A stretch of DNA of 64,000 bases from Streptacidiphilus sp. ASG 303 (GTDB lineage Bacteria > Actinomycetota > Actinomycetes > Streptomycetales > Streptomycetaceae), in contig NZ_JAJLRA010000005.1 in the NCBI RefSeq assembly GCF_020991365.1, positions 1 through 64,000 on the forward strand, written 5' to 3'. Positions 8,282 to 44,216 of the stretch are shown piece by piece (the first letter of the stretch is position 1; every line of letters begins with the position of its first letter). The position numbers and the translations under genes were made by a program. The notes below the pieces were generated by a model. That model ran no database searches. It worked only from the letters and a program-made list of their open reading frames with translations, and had not been told where the DNA came from.

Positions 8282-8685
8282 CGGACGAGTCGGCCTGTAC
8301 GCCGGGTTCTGTCTCCCGGGGGCCTTGCGGCGCCCGGGGAGGCGGCCATCCATCTAGGGCTGCCGTTGCCGACAGCCTCGTGCGGTCTACCCGCGGACTC
8401 GGGCGGGCAGCCCTCGATCATCCGCGCAGGGCGCCCGAGGGCACCCCATCTTGACCTTGCTCCGGGTGGGGTTTACCGAGCCGTCCGGATCACTCCGGCC
8501 GCTGGTGGTCTCTTACACCACCGTTTCACCCTTACCGGGGGCCGAGGCCCCCGGCGGTCTGCTTTCTGTGGCACTGTCCCGCGGGTCACCCCGGGTGGGC
8601 GTTACCCACCACCCTGCCCTGTGGAGCCCGGACGTTCCTCGGCGGGTCCGTGGACCCGTCGCGACCGCCCGGCCGGCTCGTCCGC
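8282..8685 (-). ncRNA. rnpB: RNase P RNA, class A
   Basis: The catalytic RNA of ribonuclease P, which matures tRNA 5' ends. The 5' part reads GAGGAACGTCCGGGCTCCAC, the conserved CR-I strand, and is followed by ACAGAAAGCAGACCGCC and GGTAAGGGTGAAACGGTG. The 3' half contains the CR-V partner AGACAGAACCCGGCGTACAG. The ends pair as GCGGACGAG(C/T)CGGCC. The length of about 404 bases fits actinomycete type A RNAs. A terminator follows directly, and a TAGCAT box sits ten bases before the 5' end. The neighbouring lipoprotein gene lies just upstream. Confidence 0.95.
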
Positions 8686-37849: not shown

Positions 37850-37855
37850 TAGAGT
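37850..37855 (+). promoter_or_regulatory. -10 box of the cobalamin-regulated operon
   Basis: TAGAGT lies about ten bases before the riboswitch begins, so the riboswitch would be at the very 5' end of the transcript. The -35 region is GC-only. Confidence 0.5.
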
Positions 37856-37867
37856 GTCCGCGACACA

Positions 37868-37985
37868 ACTCCATGCGCCTCCCGTCCGGGGGAAGCCGGT
37901 GCAAGTCCGGCACTGACCACGCAGCCGTGAGCCCGCCCCCCAGGCGGGCGAGTCGGAATGCCCGGCGGAGGCGAGCGGCTTCCCG
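37868..37985 (+). ncRNA. cobalamin (adenosylcobalamin-type) riboswitch
   Basis: The conserved core is visible: GGGGGAAGCCGGTGCAAGTC, then CCGGCACTGACCACGCAGCC GTGAG and, after a variable hairpin (CCCGCC...GGCGGG), GAGTCGGAATGCCCGGCGG. These match the GGTG-AA-TCC, CTG-CC-CGCA-C-GT and GTC-GA-GCC blocks of B12 riboswitches. It lies 100 bases before the first start codon. In actinobacteria such elements reduce expression when cobalamin is abundant, most likely by hiding the ribosome binding site. It ties the following operon to corrinoid supply. Confidence 0.9.
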
Positions 37986-38085
37986 GGCCCGCGGCAGCGG
38001 ACGTCCGGCACCCGTCGAGGTCTACGGACGGCCGGCGCCCGCACGGTGGCGGCCACGACCGCTCACCGAAAGGCAACACCCGCTG

Positions 38086-39504
38086 ATGCTCTCCGCCGCC
38101 GCCCGCGCCGGCGCCGCGCTCGCCTGCGCCGCGCTCCTCACCGGCACCGCCGCCGCACCGGCCCTCGCCGACGACTCCGCCTCCCCGGCCGCGTCCGCCG
38201 CCTCCCCCTCGCCGGTGGCGGTGCCCCCGGGCCTGTACGGCAAGGACGACCCGACCTACGACGGCGTCTGGCGGCAGTCCCTGGCGCTGCTCGCCCTGCA
38301 CACCGCCCAGGTGCGGCCCGCCGACGCCGCCGTGCGGTGGCTCACCGGGCAGCAGTGCGGCGACGGCGGCTGGCCGTCCTTCCGCGCCGACACCGCCGAC
38401 GCGTGCACCGCGGCCACCGAGGACAGCAACGCCACCGCGCTCGCCGTCCAGGCCCTGACCGCCCTCGGCGGCCACGACGCCGCCACCGCCAGGGGCGTCT
38501 CCTGGCTGCGCCGCCACCAGAACCCCGACGGCGGCTGGTCGTACAACCCCGGCGGCGCCAGCGACGGGAACTCCACCGGCCTCGCCGTCAACGCCCTCGT
38601 CGCCGCCAAGGCCGACCCGGCCCAGGTGCGCAAGCACGACCGCAGCGCCTACGACGGCCTGGCCTCCTTCCAGCTCGGCTGCGACGCCCCCGCGGCGAAG
38701 CGGGGCGCGTTCGCGTACCAGCCCGACAAGTCCGGCGCGCTGGAGCCCAACGACCTCGCCTCCGCCCAGGCCCTGCTCGCCGCGGCCGGCGGCGCCCTGC
38801 CCGTCGCGCCGGGCGCGCGCCGGGAGAAGCCGGCCGCCGCGCCGGACTGCGCCGCCGGGGCGAAGGGCGCCCTGCCCCGCGAGAGCTCCGCCGAGGCGGA
38901 CGCGCACTTCCTCGTCGGGCGGCTGGCCGCGGGCAAGCAGCGGCTGATGCAGTCGCTCCCCGGCGCCGCCCCCGCGCCCGACTACAACGCCACCTCCTGG
39001 GCCGTGCTGGGCCTGGTCGCGGCCGGGCACCCGGACCAGGCGTCCGACGCCGCCGACTGGCTGGCGGGCAACGGCTACGCCTGGATGCAGGGCAAGCAGG
39101 GCGTCAACCCGGCGTCCGCCGCGACGCTGCTGCTGGTGGCGAAGGCGACCGGGCTGGACCCGTACAACTTCGGCGGCAGCAACGTCGTCCAGATGCTGGT
39201 GAACTCCGGCCCGGCCCCCGCCTCGCTCCCCTCCGCCGCCGCCTCGGCCGCCTCCGCCGCGCCCGACGGCACCAAGGCGCCCGGCTCCTCGGTGACCGGC
39301 GCGGACGAGGACGAGAACGGCGGCTTCTCCCCCGTGTGGCTGATCGGCATGGGCCTGGCCGCCGGCATCGGCGGCGGGGTGTTCCTCAGCCGCCGGGGGA
39401 AGCGGGGACCGGCGGGCACGGCCCCGGCCGCCGCCCCCGCGTCCGCCGCCCCCGCCGACGACGCGCGGGACGGCGCGGCCGCCGGCGGCGGCGACGACCG
39501 ATGA
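38086..39504 (+). CDS. surface alpha/alpha-barrel protein, candidate corrinoid-capture protein
   Basis: A 472-residue exported protein: signal peptide (residues 1 to about 32, ending PALADD), an alpha/alpha-toroid domain of squalene-oxidase-type repeats (LTGQQCGDGGWPSF, RRHQNPDGGWSYNP, LAGNGYAWMQG), a linker and a C-terminal membrane anchor (about 425 to 445, WLIGMGLAAGIGGGVFL) followed by arginines. It is therefore displayed outside the cell. It is the first gene after a cobalamin riboswitch and is coupled to an ECF transporter. Animal intrinsic factor and transcobalamin bind B12 with the same kind of alpha6/alpha6 barrel, so capture of a corrinoid is a reasoned inference. Confidence 0.82.
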   Translation: MLSAAARAGAALACAALLTGTAAAPALADDSASPAASAASPSPVAVPPGLYGKDDPTYDGVWRQSLALLALHTAQVRPADAAVRWLTGQQCGDGGWPSFRADTADACTAATEDSNATALAVQALTALGGHDAATARGVSWLRRHQNPDGGWSYNPGGASDGNSTGLAVNALVAAKADPAQVRKHDRSAYDGLASFQLGCDAPAAKRGAFAYQPDKSGALEPNDLASAQALLAAAGGALPVAPGARREKPAAAPDCAAGAKGALPRESSAEADAHFLVGRLAAGKQRLMQSLPGAAPAPDYNATSWAVLGLVAAGHPDQASDAADWLAGNGYAWMQGKQGVNPASAATLLLVAKATGLDPYNFGGSNVVQMLVNSGPAPASLPSAAASAASAAPDGTKAPGSSVTGADEDENGGFSPVWLIGMGLAAGIGGGVFLSRRGKRGPAGTAPAAAPASAAPADDARDGAAAGGGDDR

Positions 39505-40220
39505 CGGGGACCGGGACCGGGACCGGGACGGGGACCCGGGCGCGCGTCCGGCCGGGCGCCGCGGCGCGCCCGGCCGCCCGGGCCCTCGTCCTCGCGGCGG
39601 CCGCCGCGCTCCCGCTGCTGGCCGCCGCCCCGGCGCAGGCCACCGGGTACCGCTACTGGTCGTTCTGGGACGGCAGCAGCGGCTCCTGGACGTACCAGCA
39701 GCAGGGGCCGGCCACCTACCGGCCGCAGGACGGCGGCGTGGACGGCTGGCGGTTCGCGGTGAGCCCCGACGGCGGCAGCGGCGCCGCCCGGCCGCGCGCG
39801 GCCGCCGGCTTCGCGGCGGTCTGCGGCGGCACCGCGGCCCGCGCGGGCCGCAAGCGGGTCGCCGTGGTGCTCGACTTCGGCACCCCCGCCGACGCCCCGG
39901 CGGGCGAGCGGCCCCCGGCCCGGCGCACCGCCTGCGCGGTCGTCCCCGAGGACGCGAACAGCGCCGAGGTGCTGGCCGCGACCGTGCCGCCGCTGCGCTA
40001 CGACGCCAGCGCCATCCTGTGCGCCATCGCCGGGTACCCCCGGTCCGGCTGCGGCGAGGCCGTCGGCGCGGGCACCGCGGACGCGGCGGGGGCGCCCGCG
40101 AAGGGCGGCGGGAGCGGTGACGGCGGCGGTCCGTCCGTCGGGCTGGCCGCGGGCGGGGCGGTGGTCGCGGCGGTCGCGGCCGGCGCCGTCGTCCGGGCCC
40201 GCCGCCGGCGTACGCCGTGA
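39501..40220 (+). CDS. SCO2322-family surface protein
   Basis: A 239-residue exported protein. Its ATG overlaps the preceding stop. A threonine/glycine repeat lead and a signal peptide (to about residue 47, APAQA) are followed by YRYWSFWDGSSGSWTYQ and YRPQDGGVDGWRF, the hallmark of the family named after S. coelicolor SCO2322. Two cysteine pairs lie later, and a C-terminal hydrophobic helix with arginine-rich end (about 210 to 232) anchors it. The pattern of W-x-Y strands and an aromatic-capped turn resembles the small beta domain (DUF4430) of intrinsic-factor-like proteins; that resemblance is my reading, not established. It always seems to accompany this ECF transporter type. Confidence 0.82.
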   Translation: MTGTGTGTGTGTRARVRPGAAARPAARALVLAAAAALPLLAAAPAQATGYRYWSFWDGSSGSWTYQQQGPATYRPQDGGVDGWRFAVSPDGGSGAARPRAAAGFAAVCGGTAARAGRKRVAVVLDFGTPADAPAGERPPARRTACAVVPEDANSAEVLAATVPPLRYDASAILCAIAGYPRSGCGEAVGAGTADAAGAPAKGGGSGDGGGPSVGLAAGGAVVAAVAAGAVVRARRRRTP

Positions 40221-41614
40221 ACCCGCAGTCCGTGGACCCGCAGTCCGTGGACCCGCAGGCAGCGGGTCCGCGCCCCGCGGCCCCGCCCGCCGGCCCCGCG
40301 GCCGCGGCGGTCCCCGCCGCACGCACGGCCGGCGGCGGGGAGCAGCGGCGGCCCGCCCGCGACCGTGCCGGCCGCCGCCGCACGGCCCGCCGTCCCGCCG
40401 CCGGGCCGCGGCAGCTGCACCCGGGCGCGTGGTGGCTGTGGGCGCTGGGCCTGGGCACCGCCGCCTCCCGCACGACGAACCCGCTGCTGCTGCTCCTCGC
40501 CGCGGCCGTCGCCGGGCACGTCGTCGCCGCCCGGCGCGGCGACGCCCCCTGGTCGCGGTCGTACGGGGCGTTCCTGCGGCTGGGCCTGGTGGTGCTCGGC
40601 ATCCGGCTGGTCTTCGCCGTGCTGCTGGGCTCGCCGGTCCCGGGCACCCGCGTGCTGTTCACCCTCCCCGAGGTGCCGCTGCCCGACTGGGCCCAGGGGG
40701 TGCGGCTGGGCGGCCGGGTCACCGCGGAGGCCCTGGCCTTCGCCCTGGAGGACGGCCTGAGGCTGGCCGTGCTGCTGGGCTGCGTCGGCGCGGCGAACGC
40801 GCTCGCGAGCCCCGCCCGGCTGCTGCGCTCCCTGCCGGGCGCCCTGTACGAGGCGGGGGTGGCGGTGGTCGTCGCCATGACGTTCGCGCCGAACCTCGTC
40901 GCCGACGTGCGGCGGCTGCGGGCCGCCCGGCGGCTGCGGGGGCGCCCCGACCGGGGCGTGCGGGCGCTGCTGAGCGTGGGCCTGCCGGTCCTGGAGGGGG
41001 CCCTGGAGCGATCGGTCGGCCTGGCCGCCGCCATGGACACCCGCGGCTTCGGCCGCACCGCCGACGTGCCGCCCGCCGTGCGCCGCACCACGGCGGCGCT
41101 CACCCTCACCGGCCTGACCGGGGTGTGCGTCGCGGTGTACGGGCTGCTGACCGACACCGGCACGGTGTGGGCGCTGCCGCTGCTGGCCGCCGGACTGGCC
41201 GCCGCCGCGGGCGGACTGGTGCTCGGCGGGCGGCGGGCGCTGCGCACCCGCCACCGGCCCGACCCGTGGGCGGCCCGGGAGTGGCTGACCGCCGGCTCGG
41301 GCGCGGCCGTCGCGGGGCTGACGGTGTGGCTGTCGACCCGCGACCCGGGCGCCTTCCACCCGCCGGCCGTCCCGCTCACCGCGCCCGCGCTGCCGCTGCT
41401 GCCGGCCGCCGCCGTGCTGCTGGGCCTGGTCCCGGCGGTCGCCGCACCGGTCCCGCCGCGGACGGCGGGGCAGGGTCCGCGGGAGGCGGCCGGCACGCGG
41501 GAGGGCACGGGAGCCGGGGCGCGCACCGCCGCGGGGGGACCGGGGCACCCGCGGGGGCGGCGGGCGCGGCAGGAACGGAAGGACGCAGAGGAACGGAAGG
41601 AGGCCGACCGGTGA
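40217..41614 (+). CDS. ECF transporter T component (CbiQ-like)
   Basis: A 465-residue integral membrane protein, the coupling subunit of an energy-coupling-factor importer. About seven hydrophobic helices are seen between residues 80 and 430, and the coupling motif lies in SVGLAAAMDTRGFGR near residue 275 (the x-R-G type helix that binds the ATPase). The first 65 residues are a proline/alanine-rich cytosolic lead. The GTG at 40217 overlaps the previous stop by four bases, and the next gene overlaps its end. It works with the fused ATPase and S component encoded downstream. Confidence 0.9.
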   Translation: MNPQSVDPQSVDPQAAGPRPAAPPAGPAAAAVPAARTAGGGEQRRPARDRAGRRRTARRPAAGPRQLHPGAWWLWALGLGTAASRTTNPLLLLLAAAVAGHVVAARRGDAPWSRSYGAFLRLGLVVLGIRLVFAVLLGSPVPGTRVLFTLPEVPLPDWAQGVRLGGRVTAEALAFALEDGLRLAVLLGCVGAANALASPARLLRSLPGALYEAGVAVVVAMTFAPNLVADVRRLRAARRLRGRPDRGVRALLSVGLPVLEGALERSVGLAAAMDTRGFGRTADVPPAVRRTTAALTLTGLTGVCVAVYGLLTDTGTVWALPLLAAGLAAAAGGLVLGGRRALRTRHRPDPWAAREWLTAGSGAAVAGLTVWLSTRDPGAFHPPAVPLTAPALPLLPAAAVLLGLVPAVAAPVPPRTAGQGPREAAGTREGTGAGARTAAGGPGHPRGRRARQERKDAEERKEADR

Positions 41615-43257
41615 TCACCTTCGAGCAGGTCTCCGTGACCTACCCCGACGCCGACGCCCCCGCCCTGGCCGGGGTGGACCTGCACGTGCCCGAGGGCGAG
41701 CTGTGCCTGCTGGTCGGCCCGTCGGGGTCGGGCAAGTCCACGCTGCTGGGCGCCGTCTCCGGCCTGGTGCCGCACTTCACCGGCGGCGTGCTGCGCGGCC
41801 GCGTCACGGTGGCCGGGCGCGACACCCGCACCCACCGGCCGCGCGACCTCGCCGACGCGGTCGGCACCGTCGGCCAGGACCCGCTGGCCCACTTCGTCAC
41901 CGACACCGTGGAGGACGAGCTCGCCTACGGCCTGGAGTCCCTGGGCACGCCGCCCGAGGTGATGCGCCGCCGCGTCGAGGAGACCCTCGACCTGATGGGC
42001 CTCGCCGAGCTGCGCGACCGGGCGCCCGCCTCCCTCTCCGGCGGCCAGCAGCAGCGGGTGGCGATCGGCTCCGTCCTCGCCGTCGGCCCCCGGCTGCTCG
42101 TCCTGGACGAGCCCACCTCCGCGCTCGACCCCGGCGCGGCGGAGGAGGTGCTGGCGGTGCTCCAGCGGCTCGTCCACGACCTGGGCACCACCGTGCTGCT
42201 GGCCGAGCACCGCCTGGAGCGGGTGGTGCAGTACGCCGACCGGGTGGTGCTGCTGCCCGGCCCCGGCCTGCCCCCGGTGACCGGCGACCCGGCCGAGGTC
42301 ATGGCGGCGTCCCCGGTCTTCCCGCCCGTCGTGGGCCTCGGCCGCGCCGCCGGCTGGTCGCCGCCGCCGCTCTCGGTCCGCGACGCCCGGCGCCGGGCCG
42401 CCCCGCTGCGGGCGCGCCTCGCCGCCGCCGCACCGGCGCCGCGCACCCCCGCCGGGCGGCCGCCCGGCGAGGCCGTCGCCGAGGTGCGCTCCCTCGCGGT
42501 GCGGCGCGGGGGCACGGCGGCGCTGCGCGGCGTCGACCTGGTCCTGCACCGGGGTTCGGTCACCGCCCTGATGGGGCGCAACGGCGCGGGCAAGTCGACC
42601 CTGCTGGGCAGCCTGGTGGGCCTGCACGCGCCCGCGTCCGGCTCGGTGCGGGTCGCCGGGCTGGTCCCGCACCGCACCCGGCCGGCGCAGCTGGTCCGGC
42701 AGGTCGGGCTGGTCCCGCAGGACCCGCGCGACCTGCTGTACGGGGAGACGGTCGCCGCCGAGTGCGCCGCGGCCGACGCCGACGCGGGGGCGGAGCCCGG
42801 CACCTGCCGCGCCCTCGTGGAGCGGCTGCTGCCGGGTCTCGCGGACGGCAGCCACCCGCGCGACCTCTCCGAGGGCCAGCGGCTCTCGCTCGCGCTGGCG
42901 GTCGTCCTCACGGCCCGGCCCGCCCTGCTGCTGCTCGACGAGCCGACCCGGGGGCTGGACTACGCGGCCAAGGAGCGGCTGGTGGGGATCGTGCGCGGGC
43001 TCGCCGCCGAGGAGCCGCGCTGCGCCGTGCTGCTCGCCACCCACGACGTGGAGCTGGCCGCGGAGCTGGCCGACCGCACGGTCGTGCTGGCCGACGGGGA
43101 GGTGGTGGACGACGGACCGACCGCCTCGGTGGTCACCGCCTCGCCCGCCTTCGCCCCGCAGGTGGCGAAGGTGCTCGCCCCCGAGCCCTGGCTGACGGTC
43201 AGTCAGGTCCGCGACGCGCTCACGCCGGTCGGCGCCGCGCCGGGGAGCCCCGCGTGA
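41611..43257 (+). CDS. ECF transporter ATPase, two nucleotide-binding domains fused
   Basis: A 548-residue protein with two ABC domains in tandem, equivalent to EcfA1/A2. Domain 1: Walker A VGPSGSGKSTLL (near residue 38), signature LSGGQQQRVAIG, Walker B LLVLDEPTSALD. Domain 2 (from about residue 290): Walker A GRNGAGKSTLL, signature LSEGQRLSLALA, Walker B LLLLDEPTRGLDY, H-loop ATHDVELA. It powers uptake by ATP hydrolysis at the inner face of the membrane. The GTG overlaps the T-component stop. Confidence 0.93.
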   Translation: MITFEQVSVTYPDADAPALAGVDLHVPEGELCLLVGPSGSGKSTLLGAVSGLVPHFTGGVLRGRVTVAGRDTRTHRPRDLADAVGTVGQDPLAHFVTDTVEDELAYGLESLGTPPEVMRRRVEETLDLMGLAELRDRAPASLSGGQQQRVAIGSVLAVGPRLLVLDEPTSALDPGAAEEVLAVLQRLVHDLGTTVLLAEHRLERVVQYADRVVLLPGPGLPPVTGDPAEVMAASPVFPPVVGLGRAAGWSPPPLSVRDARRRAAPLRARLAAAAPAPRTPAGRPPGEAVAEVRSLAVRRGGTAALRGVDLVLHRGSVTALMGRNGAGKSTLLGSLVGLHAPASGSVRVAGLVPHRTRPAQLVRQVGLVPQDPRDLLYGETVAAECAAADADAGAEPGTCRALVERLLPGLADGSHPRDLSEGQRLSLALAVVLTARPALLLLDEPTRGLDYAAKERLVGIVRGLAAEEPRCAVLLATHDVELAAELADRTVVLADGEVVDDGPTASVVTASPAFAPQVAKVLAPEPWLTVSQVRDALTPVGAAPGSPA

Positions 43258-44216
43258 CCCCCGCACCCGGGGCGGCGCCCCGGACCGCCGCGCCCGGGAC
43301 CGCCGCATCCGGCACCGGCACCGGCACCGGACACCGCAGCGCCACCCGGCCCGTCCCCCTCGGCCGGCGGTCCGCCGCGGCCCTCGCGCTGACCTCCGCG
43401 GCGGGCGTCGCCGCCTTCGGCTGGCCGCTGCTCGCCTCCCCCGGCGCCGACCTCGTCGGCCACTCCGCCGACGCGCCCTGGCTCTTCGCCGCCCTGCTGC
43501 CGCTGCTGCTGGCGGTGGCCGTCGCCCAGGTCGCCGAGGGCCGGGCCGACGGCGGCCCCGGCCTGGACGCCAAGGCGGTCGCCCTGCTCGGCGTCCTCGC
43601 CGCCGCCGGCGCCGCCCTGCGCCCGCTGGGCGCGGGCACGGCCGGGATCGAGCCGATGTTCTTCCTCATGGTGCTGGCGGGCCGGGTGCTCGGGCCCGGC
43701 TTCGGCTTCGTGCTGGGCGCGCTGTCGATGTTCGCGTCCGGCCTGCTCACCGGCGGTGTGGGCCCCTGGCTGCCGTTCCAGATGCTGGCCATGGGGTGGG
43801 TGTGCACGGGCGCGGGGCTGCTCCCGGGCGCCGCCGGCCTGCGCGGGCGGCGCGAACGCGTCCTGCTCGCCGCGTACGGGGCCGTCTCCTCCGTCCTGTA
43901 CGGCACCGTGATGAACCTCCAGGGCTGGCCCTACCTCGGCGGCATGAGCAGCTCCGTCTCCTTCGTCCCCGGCGACCCGCTCACCGCCAACCTGGCGCGC
44001 TTCACCGCGTACTGCCTCGCCACCTCCCTCGGCTGGGACCTGCCGCGCGCCGCCGTCACCGTCGTCCTCTGCCTCACCGTCGGCGGACCGGTGCTGCGGG
44101 CCCTGCGCCGCGCCTCGCGCCGCGCCGCCTTCGACGCGCCCGTCTCCTTCGTGGACGGCCAGGCCGGGCCGTCCACCGCCGGGGACGGCTCCGCCGAGGG
44201 CACCGCCGGACGCTGA
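43254..44216 (+). CDS. ECF transporter S component (substrate-specificity subunit)
   Basis: A 320-residue membrane protein with about six hydrophobic helices between residues 45 and 285, the layout of ECF S components, including GIEPMFFLMVLAGRVLGPGFG and ALSMFASGLLTGGVGPWLPF that match the thiamine/cobalamin-type subfamily. The GTG overlaps the ATPase stop. The riboswitch implies the substrate is cobalamin, cobinamide or a precursor. Cobalt alone is less likely because no CbiN/CbiM pair is present. Confidence 0.88.
   Translation: MTPAPGAAPRTAAPGTAASGTGTGTGHRSATRPVPLGRRSAAALALTSAAGVAAFGWPLLASPGADLVGHSADAPWLFAALLPLLLAVAVAQVAEGRADGGPGLDAKAVALLGVLAAAGAALRPLGAGTAGIEPMFFLMVLAGRVLGPGFGFVLGALSMFASGLLTGGVGPWLPFQMLAMGWVCTGAGLLPGAAGLRGRRERVLLAAYGAVSSVLYGTVMNLQGWPYLGGMSSSVSFVPGDPLTANLARFTAYCLATSLGWDLPRAAVTVVLCLTVGGPVLRALRRASRRAAFDAPVSFVDGQAGPSTAGDGSAEGTAGR

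Follow-up and report, generated by a model that had tools for sequence, protein, structure and literature searches.

Burroughs, Balaji, Iyer and Aravind named the SLBB superfamily in 2007 and, in the available portion of their paper, described secreted bacterial SLBB-toroid proteins that are encoded with CbiO/CbiQ-like genes, often alongside a second surface SLBB protein, and that were predicted to scavenge B12 (PMC1796856). For transport itself, the available portion of a second paper presents ECF-CbrT of Lactobacillus delbrueckii as a characterised energy-coupling factor (ECF) transporter for B12 (PMC5997447). Circular permutation of a beta-grasp fold is also on record, the available portion of a third paper describing the UFD of eukaryotic E1 enzymes as a permutant in which strand S1 has moved to the C-terminus (PMC1949818). 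Here we analyse an operon in a 64,000-nucleotide stretch of Streptacidiphilus sp. ASG 303 (contig NZ_JAJLRA010000005.1, positions 1 to 64,000; hereafter the window), in which a cobalamin riboswitch precedes genes for two surface proteins, of the SCO2321 and SCO2322 families, and for an ECF importer. In our judgement this operon probably encodes a B12-repressed corrinoid importer whose surface pair is a split, doubly permuted toroid and beta domain.

A preliminary description had read the region as a B12 riboswitch followed by five genes with four-base overlaps, encoding a barrel protein and an SCO2322-family protein, each with a signal and an anchor, and the ECF T, fused ATPase and S components. 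Model scores, hydropathy and coordinates agree with that reading, the T component scoring below the CbiQ cut-off. The parts of the operon are as follows, canonical denoting the segment order found in the relatives described below.

37889..37963, + strand, cobalamin riboswitch aptamer (RF00174, 41.2 bits against a gathering score of 31.5, E 5.7e-07)
38086..39504, + strand, P0001, SCO2321-family surface protein, the barrel (NF053823 SCO2321_fam, 414.5 bits, cut-off 300)
38230..38865, + strand, toroid segment bC, P0001 residues 49-260, second in canonical relatives (aligns to positions 183-385 of the canonical set A5)
38866..39219, + strand, toroid segment bN, P0001 residues 261-378, first in canonical relatives (aligns to canonical A5 positions 79-178)
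39501..40220, + strand, P0002, SCO2322-family surface protein (NF040672 SCO2322_fam, 213.7 bits, cut-off 85)
39648..39764, + strand, segment D1 of the beta domain (YRYWSFW...GWRFAVS), corresponding to the C-terminal half of the canonical domain (D1 alone E 7.2e-18, canonical columns 78-116)
39846..40064, + strand, segment D2 of the beta domain (RVAVVLDFG...LCAIAGYP..GC), corresponding to the N-terminal half of the canonical domain (D2 alone E 4e-12, canonical columns 7-68)
40217..41614, + strand, ECF T component, CbiQ-like (CbiQ PF02361, 20.3 bits, below the cut-off of 25; position conserved in related loci)
41611..43257, + strand, fused ECF A-A' ATPase (two ABC_tran PF00005 stretches)
43254..44216, + strand, ECF S component, a substrate-binding membrane protein (ECF_trnsprt PF12822, 31.4 bits, cut-off 30.7)

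All four junctions between the five same-strand genes are 4-base overlaps. The barrel start was taken as the ATG at 38086, the longest open reading frame (ORF), from 37873, beginning ahead of the riboswitch. By hydropathy, P0001 and P0002 alike have an N-terminal signal-like and a C-terminal membrane-like segment. A-A', T and S are all encoded in the one operon, which specifies an ECF importer with its own energizing module, and P0002 stands in a secreted setting (secretion by hydropathy only) associated with toroid and CbiO/CbiQ-like genes. Earlier ECF predictions, with the names CbrT, CbrU and CbrV, were reportedly made by Rodionov and colleagues in 2009.

Relatives were drawn from two sources. 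Genome contigs scanned with an SCO2322 alignment yielded at least 526 relatives, from which 80 named loci (Streptomyces, Kitasatospora and Wenjunlia) were kept, and 396 genomes formed a sample of the phylum. In Streptomycetaceae and in genome G062, the SCO2322-family domain opens with D1 (YRYWSFW...GWRF in the window's protein) and closes with D2. Counterparts of the two segments occur in the opposite, canonical order at 31 other loci, one of which (L077) is the second locus of a Streptomycetaceae genome. Profiles were built from 90 SCO2322-type domains (77 of the 80 named, three having missed the text pattern, and 13 from set A1) and from the 31 canonical domains. In native order the two profiles aligned over 38 columns (E 2.3e-15), and with D2 put before D1 over 96 columns (E 5.4e-27), reversed controls giving E 0.22 and 0.26. 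A cut at a quarter of the alignment, intended as a control, fell near the D1/D2 seam (1.5e-25); hence a separate rotation scan served as the control. Against set A7 (48 of 49 canonical domains, L080 left out) the scan was best at the D1/D2 cut (2e-24, 96 columns, versus 2e-14 and 37 columns at rotation 0), and canonical domains compared with each other scored best at rotation 0.

Searching the phylum sample with A7 returned a match at E<=1e-6 in 66 genomes. In 13 of these (12 from the window's family, and G062) a match covered only the second half of the model (position >=48), as expected for a circular permutant. One genome (G171) had a half-model match together with a full canonical match, and 54 of the 66 genomes had a canonical match overall. 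The AlphaFold2 model of P0002 (predicted local distance difference test, pLDDT, 89.0; predicted template modelling score, pTM, 0.84) has the elements E-E-E, short helix, E-E-H-E-E (E, strand; H, helix), in which the E-E-H run that opens a beta-grasp domain is placed after three strands. This order differs from the S1-S2-helix-S3-S4-S5 of a beta-grasp domain, and moving D2 ahead of D1 restores the order of the canonical relatives. From the profile comparisons we conclude that SCO2322 proteins have, in circularly permuted form, a beta domain found widely across Actinobacteriota. Three genomes with another copy have an additional beta-domain ORF of 183-212 aa (G322:C89:15298-15621, G294:C5:49286-49606 and G036:C30:22219-22533).

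In most related loci with a barrel, the counterpart of P0001 residues 261-378 comes first and that of residues 49-260 second. The native P0001-type profile aligned with 21 canonical barrels over 196 columns (E 1.8e-34) and, separately, over 99 columns (E 6.9e-15). Once rotated it aligned in one piece of 299 columns (E 2e-49), and the reversed control gave E 0.0045. The rotation scan peaked at residues 249-269, canonical barrels again scoring best against each other at rotation 0. The chosen protein sets comprised 22 (A2), 21 (A5) and 20 (A6) of those available. On profile evidence, the SCO2321 barrel is likewise a circular permutant of the order in most relatives.

A barrel match at E<=1e-15 was found in 104 of the 396 genomes. 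The permuted pattern, in which the best match to one barrel starts at model position >=129, occurred in 15 of them, 12 from the window's family and three from family f16. A tree was built from 45 barrels of loci L066-L120 that have both segments, set in canonical order, with the window's own barrel left out. Even on well-supported branches alone, the permuted label has to change twice: barrels of the window's family (11 in the tree) are sister to canonical f53 barrels (support 97/91), and the three permuted f16 barrels (100/96) are nested with canonical f16 barrels. By this tree, barrel order has changed at least twice. The wide spread of the canonical order suggests that it is ancestral, and the two label changes would therefore be two gains of the permuted order. 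Read by eye, both permuted groups start immediately ahead of one shared GRF/GLYG position and end directly behind an FGG-D-L-V segment. The permutation of both halves, and its recurrence, go beyond the preliminary description and are undescribed in the literature searched.

The two halves are also found fused, in two layouts. In three f31 loci (L085, L091 and L111) one ORF combines the toroid with three CWB2 stretches and either one or two canonical beta domains (E 3e-20 to 5.1e-22 for single domains); its neighbours are T, A and S and a stand-alone beta gene. The second layout occurs at three loci of the window's family, one of them (L215) from the window's own genus; the number of toroids given is the range across the three loci.

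L214, 4924-8838, + strand, fused ORF, canonical beta domain then tandem toroids (two or three); adjoins beta, T, A and S
L215, 5660-8728, + strand, fused ORF of the same layout; adjoins beta, T, A and S
L216, 4944-7991, - strand, fused ORF of the same layout; adjoins beta, T, A and S
L215, 3947-5482, - strand, divergent ORF, toroid segment (31 bits) then Pfam DUF4430 (24.6 bits, cut-off 23.8)

At each of the three loci, RF00174 matches are found close to where the divergent genes begin; five of the six are over the cut-off, and the sixth (L215, + strand, 30.6 bits) is below it. L215 has such matches on both sides, and the same congener also has a permuted operon (L217). Both domains occur in tandem copies, and such copies are what a putative route to permutation through duplication and trimming would require as intermediates. 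Across the phylum sample, a beta (A7) or DUF4430 match accompanies the barrel in 98 of 104 genomes, and the barrel is present in 58 of 66 beta genomes and in 43 of 76 DUF4430 genomes (barrel against beta-or-DUF4430, Fisher's exact p 2.4e-51, uncorrected for shared descent).

Barrel, beta and T genes were present, in that order, in all 80 kept loci, with A in 76 and S in 72, and the order barrel-beta-T-A-S held in 72 of the 72 loci with all five. The eight loci short of five genes probably represent short contigs. Because the barrel-beta-T order recurs in 80 of 80 named relatives, the grouping is more than chance. The nearest SCO2322 relatives, among the matches listed, are from Kitasatospora and Streptomyces. 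In the phylum sample the SCO2322 model matched 54 of 396 genomes, 13 of them over the cut-off. When window proteins were searched with phmmer (E<1e-20) against 56 stretches, namely 55 loci with strong or weak matches plus the window, 43 stretches had T, 51 had A and 49 had S. The ORF calls in related loci include shadow frames of GC-rich DNA, and early hidden Markov models made from the longest ORFs were contaminated by them; our conclusions rest on later, domain-level profiles. One 1,006-aa ORF (L080, 5024-8044, - strand) matches the T, A and S models at once and may be a fusion or reflect shadow-frame contamination of the models.

The preliminary description had left the co-occurrence of neighbourhood and riboswitch to be checked across actinobacteria. 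The beta gene has an RF00174 match (E<=0.001) ahead of it, on the same strand and no more than 4.5 kb away, in 44 of 54 genomes; the nearest such match is over the Rfam cut-off in 24 of the 44. Twenty-eight genomes have a single RF00174 match. It takes this upstream position in 25 of them (over the cut-off in 16) and lies on another contig in the other three (G002, G242 and G335). No upstream match was found in 10 of the 54 genomes (G107, G193, G023, G242, G362, G002, G022, G322, G335 and G225); the B12-box pattern is present in the G193 locus and absent from the G107 and G023 loci. An earlier count had used stricter filters and lost weak matches. Of the named loci, 76 of 80 have the B12-box pattern upstream of the barrel, and in 75 it is no more than 320 nt from where the aligned barrel begins; these 80 loci (1,090,783 bases) have 104 occurrences in total, counting both strands. 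When the Rfam model was run on ten chosen named loci, two of them without a B12 box, six reached the gathering score.

In four genomes (G134, G284, G166 and G102) the riboswitch match lies 418-523 nt before the beta match, which leaves no room for a barrel gene between them. Whole-genome searches placed their barrels elsewhere, 110-166 nt behind another RF00174 match (cut-off 31.5 bits).

G134, C10:52045-53115, + strand, unlinked barrel; riboswitch C10:51725-51879, + strand, 32.5 bits, over the cut-off
G284, C1:953482-954537, - strand, unlinked barrel; riboswitch 954667-954786, - strand, 30.1 bits, below the cut-off
G166, C78:38314-39318, - strand, unlinked barrel; riboswitch 39428-39494, - strand, 30.1 bits, below the cut-off
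G102, C13:69631-70716, + strand, unlinked barrel; riboswitch 69380-69481, + strand, 30.4 bits, below the cut-off

The same whole-genome search returned no barrel match in G062. At another locus (L079, G204:C1:669547-687753), two beta genes, two canonical barrels and five cobalamin riboswitch matches lie within about 12 kb. The window's own genome (G000, 6,985,763 bases in 200 contigs, the window being on C156) has further cobalamin riboswitch matches at C178:142733-142860, C178:130235-130380, C167:72625-72741 and C189:223865-224026, the last below the cut-off.

The relation to transcobalamin was traced through DUF4430. A profile built from 26 of 30 actinobacterial DUF4430 loci, searched against 9,085 translated segments, reached the f31 fused ORFs at whole-sequence E 4.8e-6 (L091), 1.3e-5 (L085) and 0.0039 (L111), with best single domains at 6.5e-5 (L091) and 0.14 (L085). 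Canonical-order barrels stand near DUF4430 genes in L210 and L211, and other proteins of such loci match Pfam PF14478 (L077, L108 and L215). On these profile matches, the beta domain is likely homologous to the transcobalamin beta domain, and its assignment to the transcobalamin (SLBB/DUF4430) beta-grasp type has moderate support. A direct profile comparison of SCO2322 and DUF4430, in native and in rotated order, was uninformative (probability at most 3), the link running only via the canonical actinobacterial beta domains. In loci L201-L205, DUF4430 domains are repeated within long ORFs (1,839 to 2,330 aa) that neighbour shorter ones with DUF4430, and toroid models found no match there at E<=0.01.

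Searches against known structures and families added little on this point. With the AlphaFold2 model of the P0002 beta domain, Foldseek gave 20 PDB matches, none at E<=0.001, and VIA-align gave none at Z >=2 among 122 chains; both programs work in sequence order and can miss a permutant, and these nulls are evidence neither way. When 22 canonical beta proteins were searched against the PDB, the 13 matches were all at E 0.029 or worse and included no plausible relative. For the barrel, P0001 has no match to PF01122 Cobalamin_bind at E<=1, the L111 toroid matches that family weakly and below the cut-off (E 0.0058), and no transcobalamin or intrinsic factor is among the 50 barrel fold matches listed, which excludes nothing.

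Several observations weigh against a B12-specific toroid and beta pair. The canonical beta domains match 26 DUF4430 domains weakly (profile-profile probability 35.7, E 3.9e-4), and the reverse search reaches DUF4430 proteins at a best whole-sequence E of 0.0043. P0002 has no Pfam match at E<=1, PF14478 DUF4430 included, and Pfam DUF4430 matches none of 22 canonical beta relatives. The closest sequence relatives of the barrel are squalene-hopene cyclases, and in a PDB search with canonical barrels intrinsic factor appeared only at E 0.3 over 40 positions. A PDB profile search gave the S component no convincing match to a solved B12 S component. Eight of the 66 beta genomes, G062 among them, lack a barrel match at E<=1e-15, which suggests that the barrel may be dispensable. 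On the regulatory side, 20 of the 44 upstream RF00174 matches are below the Rfam cut-off, four of the ten named loci tested have no RF00174 match over it, and no match at E<=0.001 was found for the permuted operon L217, which comes from the same genus as the window. Finally, CbiC is encoded in the window's genome (C189:229786-230370, on the same contig as one of the further riboswitch matches), so that B12 is probably made there and its uptake not depended on.

In the mechanism that we propose, the toroid and the beta domain would clasp a corrinoid between them on the outer side of the membrane, in the way that transcobalamin's two domains do within a single chain. The membrane-tethered pair would then pass the corrinoid to the S component, with the T/A-A' module powering import, and the riboswitch would lower expression of the operon once cobalamin is abundant. 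Tandem duplication followed by trimming is the probable origin of the permutations, which would move the C-terminal anchor to a different edge of each half. The preliminary description had already taken the two surface proteins for the halves of a trap. This stands as far as toroid and beta domain are recognised by profile, are fused in relatives and have riboswitch matches upstream even when unlinked; the step from beta domain to transcobalamin remains weak and transitive.

A hydrophobic C-terminal segment (KD19 >=1.39) was found in 20 of 22 canonical beta proteins, versus 8 of 28 canonical barrels, and six of those 28 barrels were read as anchored by eye from their C-termini. A membrane-like or LPXTG-type C-terminal segment was present in all 14 permuted barrels examined and in the window's. 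These C-termini give a hint that the permuted order goes with a C-terminal anchor, and only a hint because the permuted barrels form two lineages. We raise tentatively, as a rather doubtful extension, that both clamp halves were permuted in the Streptomycetaceae line, and the toroid again independently in f16 at the same seam, as an adaptive change from a secreted or wall-bound carrier to a membrane-tethered clamp that loads S directly. If true, this would be a rare case of concerted permutation in two interacting proteins.

The asymmetry in C-termini also favours an unlikely but serious alternative, in which there is no shared sandwich: the barrel alone would scavenge corrinoid, and the beta protein would act in the membrane as a gate or receptor, either docking the barrel once it is loaded or aiding S. 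Barrels that are secreted in many relatives, barrel genes that can sit far from the transporter and genomes with a beta match and no barrel match all suit such a division of labour. However, the two fusion layouts and the strong co-occurrence fit direct cooperation, and both transcobalamin domains touch the ligand according to the available portion of Burroughs et al. 2007 (PMC1796856).

We consider it improbable that the cargo is something other than a complete corrinoid, for example chelated cobalt or a lower-ligand base, and that the operon is B12-regulated as a feeder of B12 synthesis. Cobalamin riboswitches also control transporters for cobalt or B12 precursors, the host has CbiC, and the S component is unlike solved B12 S components; its single-protein PDB search gave one match (E 1), and it weakly resembles the folate S family, below the cut-off. 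However, toroid and beta domain are parts of known corrinoid carriers, and in 25 genomes the sole RF00174 match found lies at this operon.

That the barrel is a surface enzyme resembling a terpene cyclase is very improbable, although squalene-hopene cyclases and their relatives are its top matches in both sequence and fold. The AlphaFold2 barrel of P0001, with 13 helices of at least four residues between residues 60 and 390, matches alpha/alpha toroids (VIA Z 22.6 to 2sqc, 254 aligned residues, 3.2 A). DxDD is the catalytic motif of class II terpene cyclases, and P0001 has no DxDD string. The string occurs in 3 of 56 Streptomycetaceae barrels, by eye in an acidic linker, and in 4 of 21 canonical barrels, at positions not compared with cyclases; a looser D-x-[DN]-x-T string is present in 56 of 56 and 19 of 21, respectively. 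We dismiss the idea that alignment of internal repeats has produced spurious permutations: although the toroid is made of repeated hairpins, and rotated alignments accordingly score even between canonical barrels, the canonical controls peak at rotation 0, the SCO2321 and SCO2322 profiles peak at one seam, and whole-genome searches return the same split or half matches.

Elsewhere in the window, a bacterial class A RNase P RNA lies at 8282-8680 on the - strand (276.4 bits).

If the operon is a split, doubly permuted corrinoid importer, a function can be proposed for two large families that have only locus-tag names (SCO2321 and SCO2322), together with a concrete B12 uptake route for Streptomycetaceae. 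The series from fused toroid-beta chains to split, rotated ones would make the assembly logic of the transcobalamin clamp testable in small bacterial proteins. The rotated order hid this kinship, the permuted beta domain being invisible to Pfam and to fold searches that follow sequence order. In the literature searched (open-licence only), SCO2322 is not named, and nothing related by title was found for SCO2320, SCO2321, SCO2323, SCO2324 or SCO2325. New here, as far as that literature goes, are a split form with both halves permuted, the recurrence of this form and a proposed role for SCO2321 and SCO2322.

The preliminary description had called a two-protein surface trap feeding an ECF importer a new arrangement, a claim that our analysis does not support: surface B12 scavenging by toroid and SLBB proteins with CbiO/CbiQ was already predicted in the available portion of Burroughs et al. 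2007 (PMC1796856). The arrangement is therefore not new in kind, and its split, doubly permuted form is a new variant. Like the systems in that portion of the paper, the window's operon combines a toroid and a putative beta-grasp domain, both predicted to be secreted, with an ABC ATPase and a CbiQ-like protein; unlike them, its halves are separate genes, both circularly permuted. The clade named there is from low-GC Gram-positives, planctomycetes and euryarchaea, and the main text contains neither 'Streptomyces' nor 'circular permut'. With ECF-CbrT, as presented in the available portion of PMC5997447, the operon shares an ECF-type importer and a B12 substrate, which is predicted here; it differs in also encoding A-A', T and two surface proteins, and in an S component with no convincing PDB profile match. 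The E1 UFD (PMC1949818, available portion) is likewise a natural beta-grasp permutant, but it belongs to the ubiquitin pathway and its function is unrelated. Animal transcobalamin, intrinsic factor and haptocorrin, to which direct sequence matches are weak or absent, also pair a toroid with a small beta domain; one chain holds both in L085, L091 and L111, and L215 joins a toroid segment to DUF4430. In contrast to these carriers, the window has two genes, whose membrane-anchored products have both halves rotated, beside an ECF importer.

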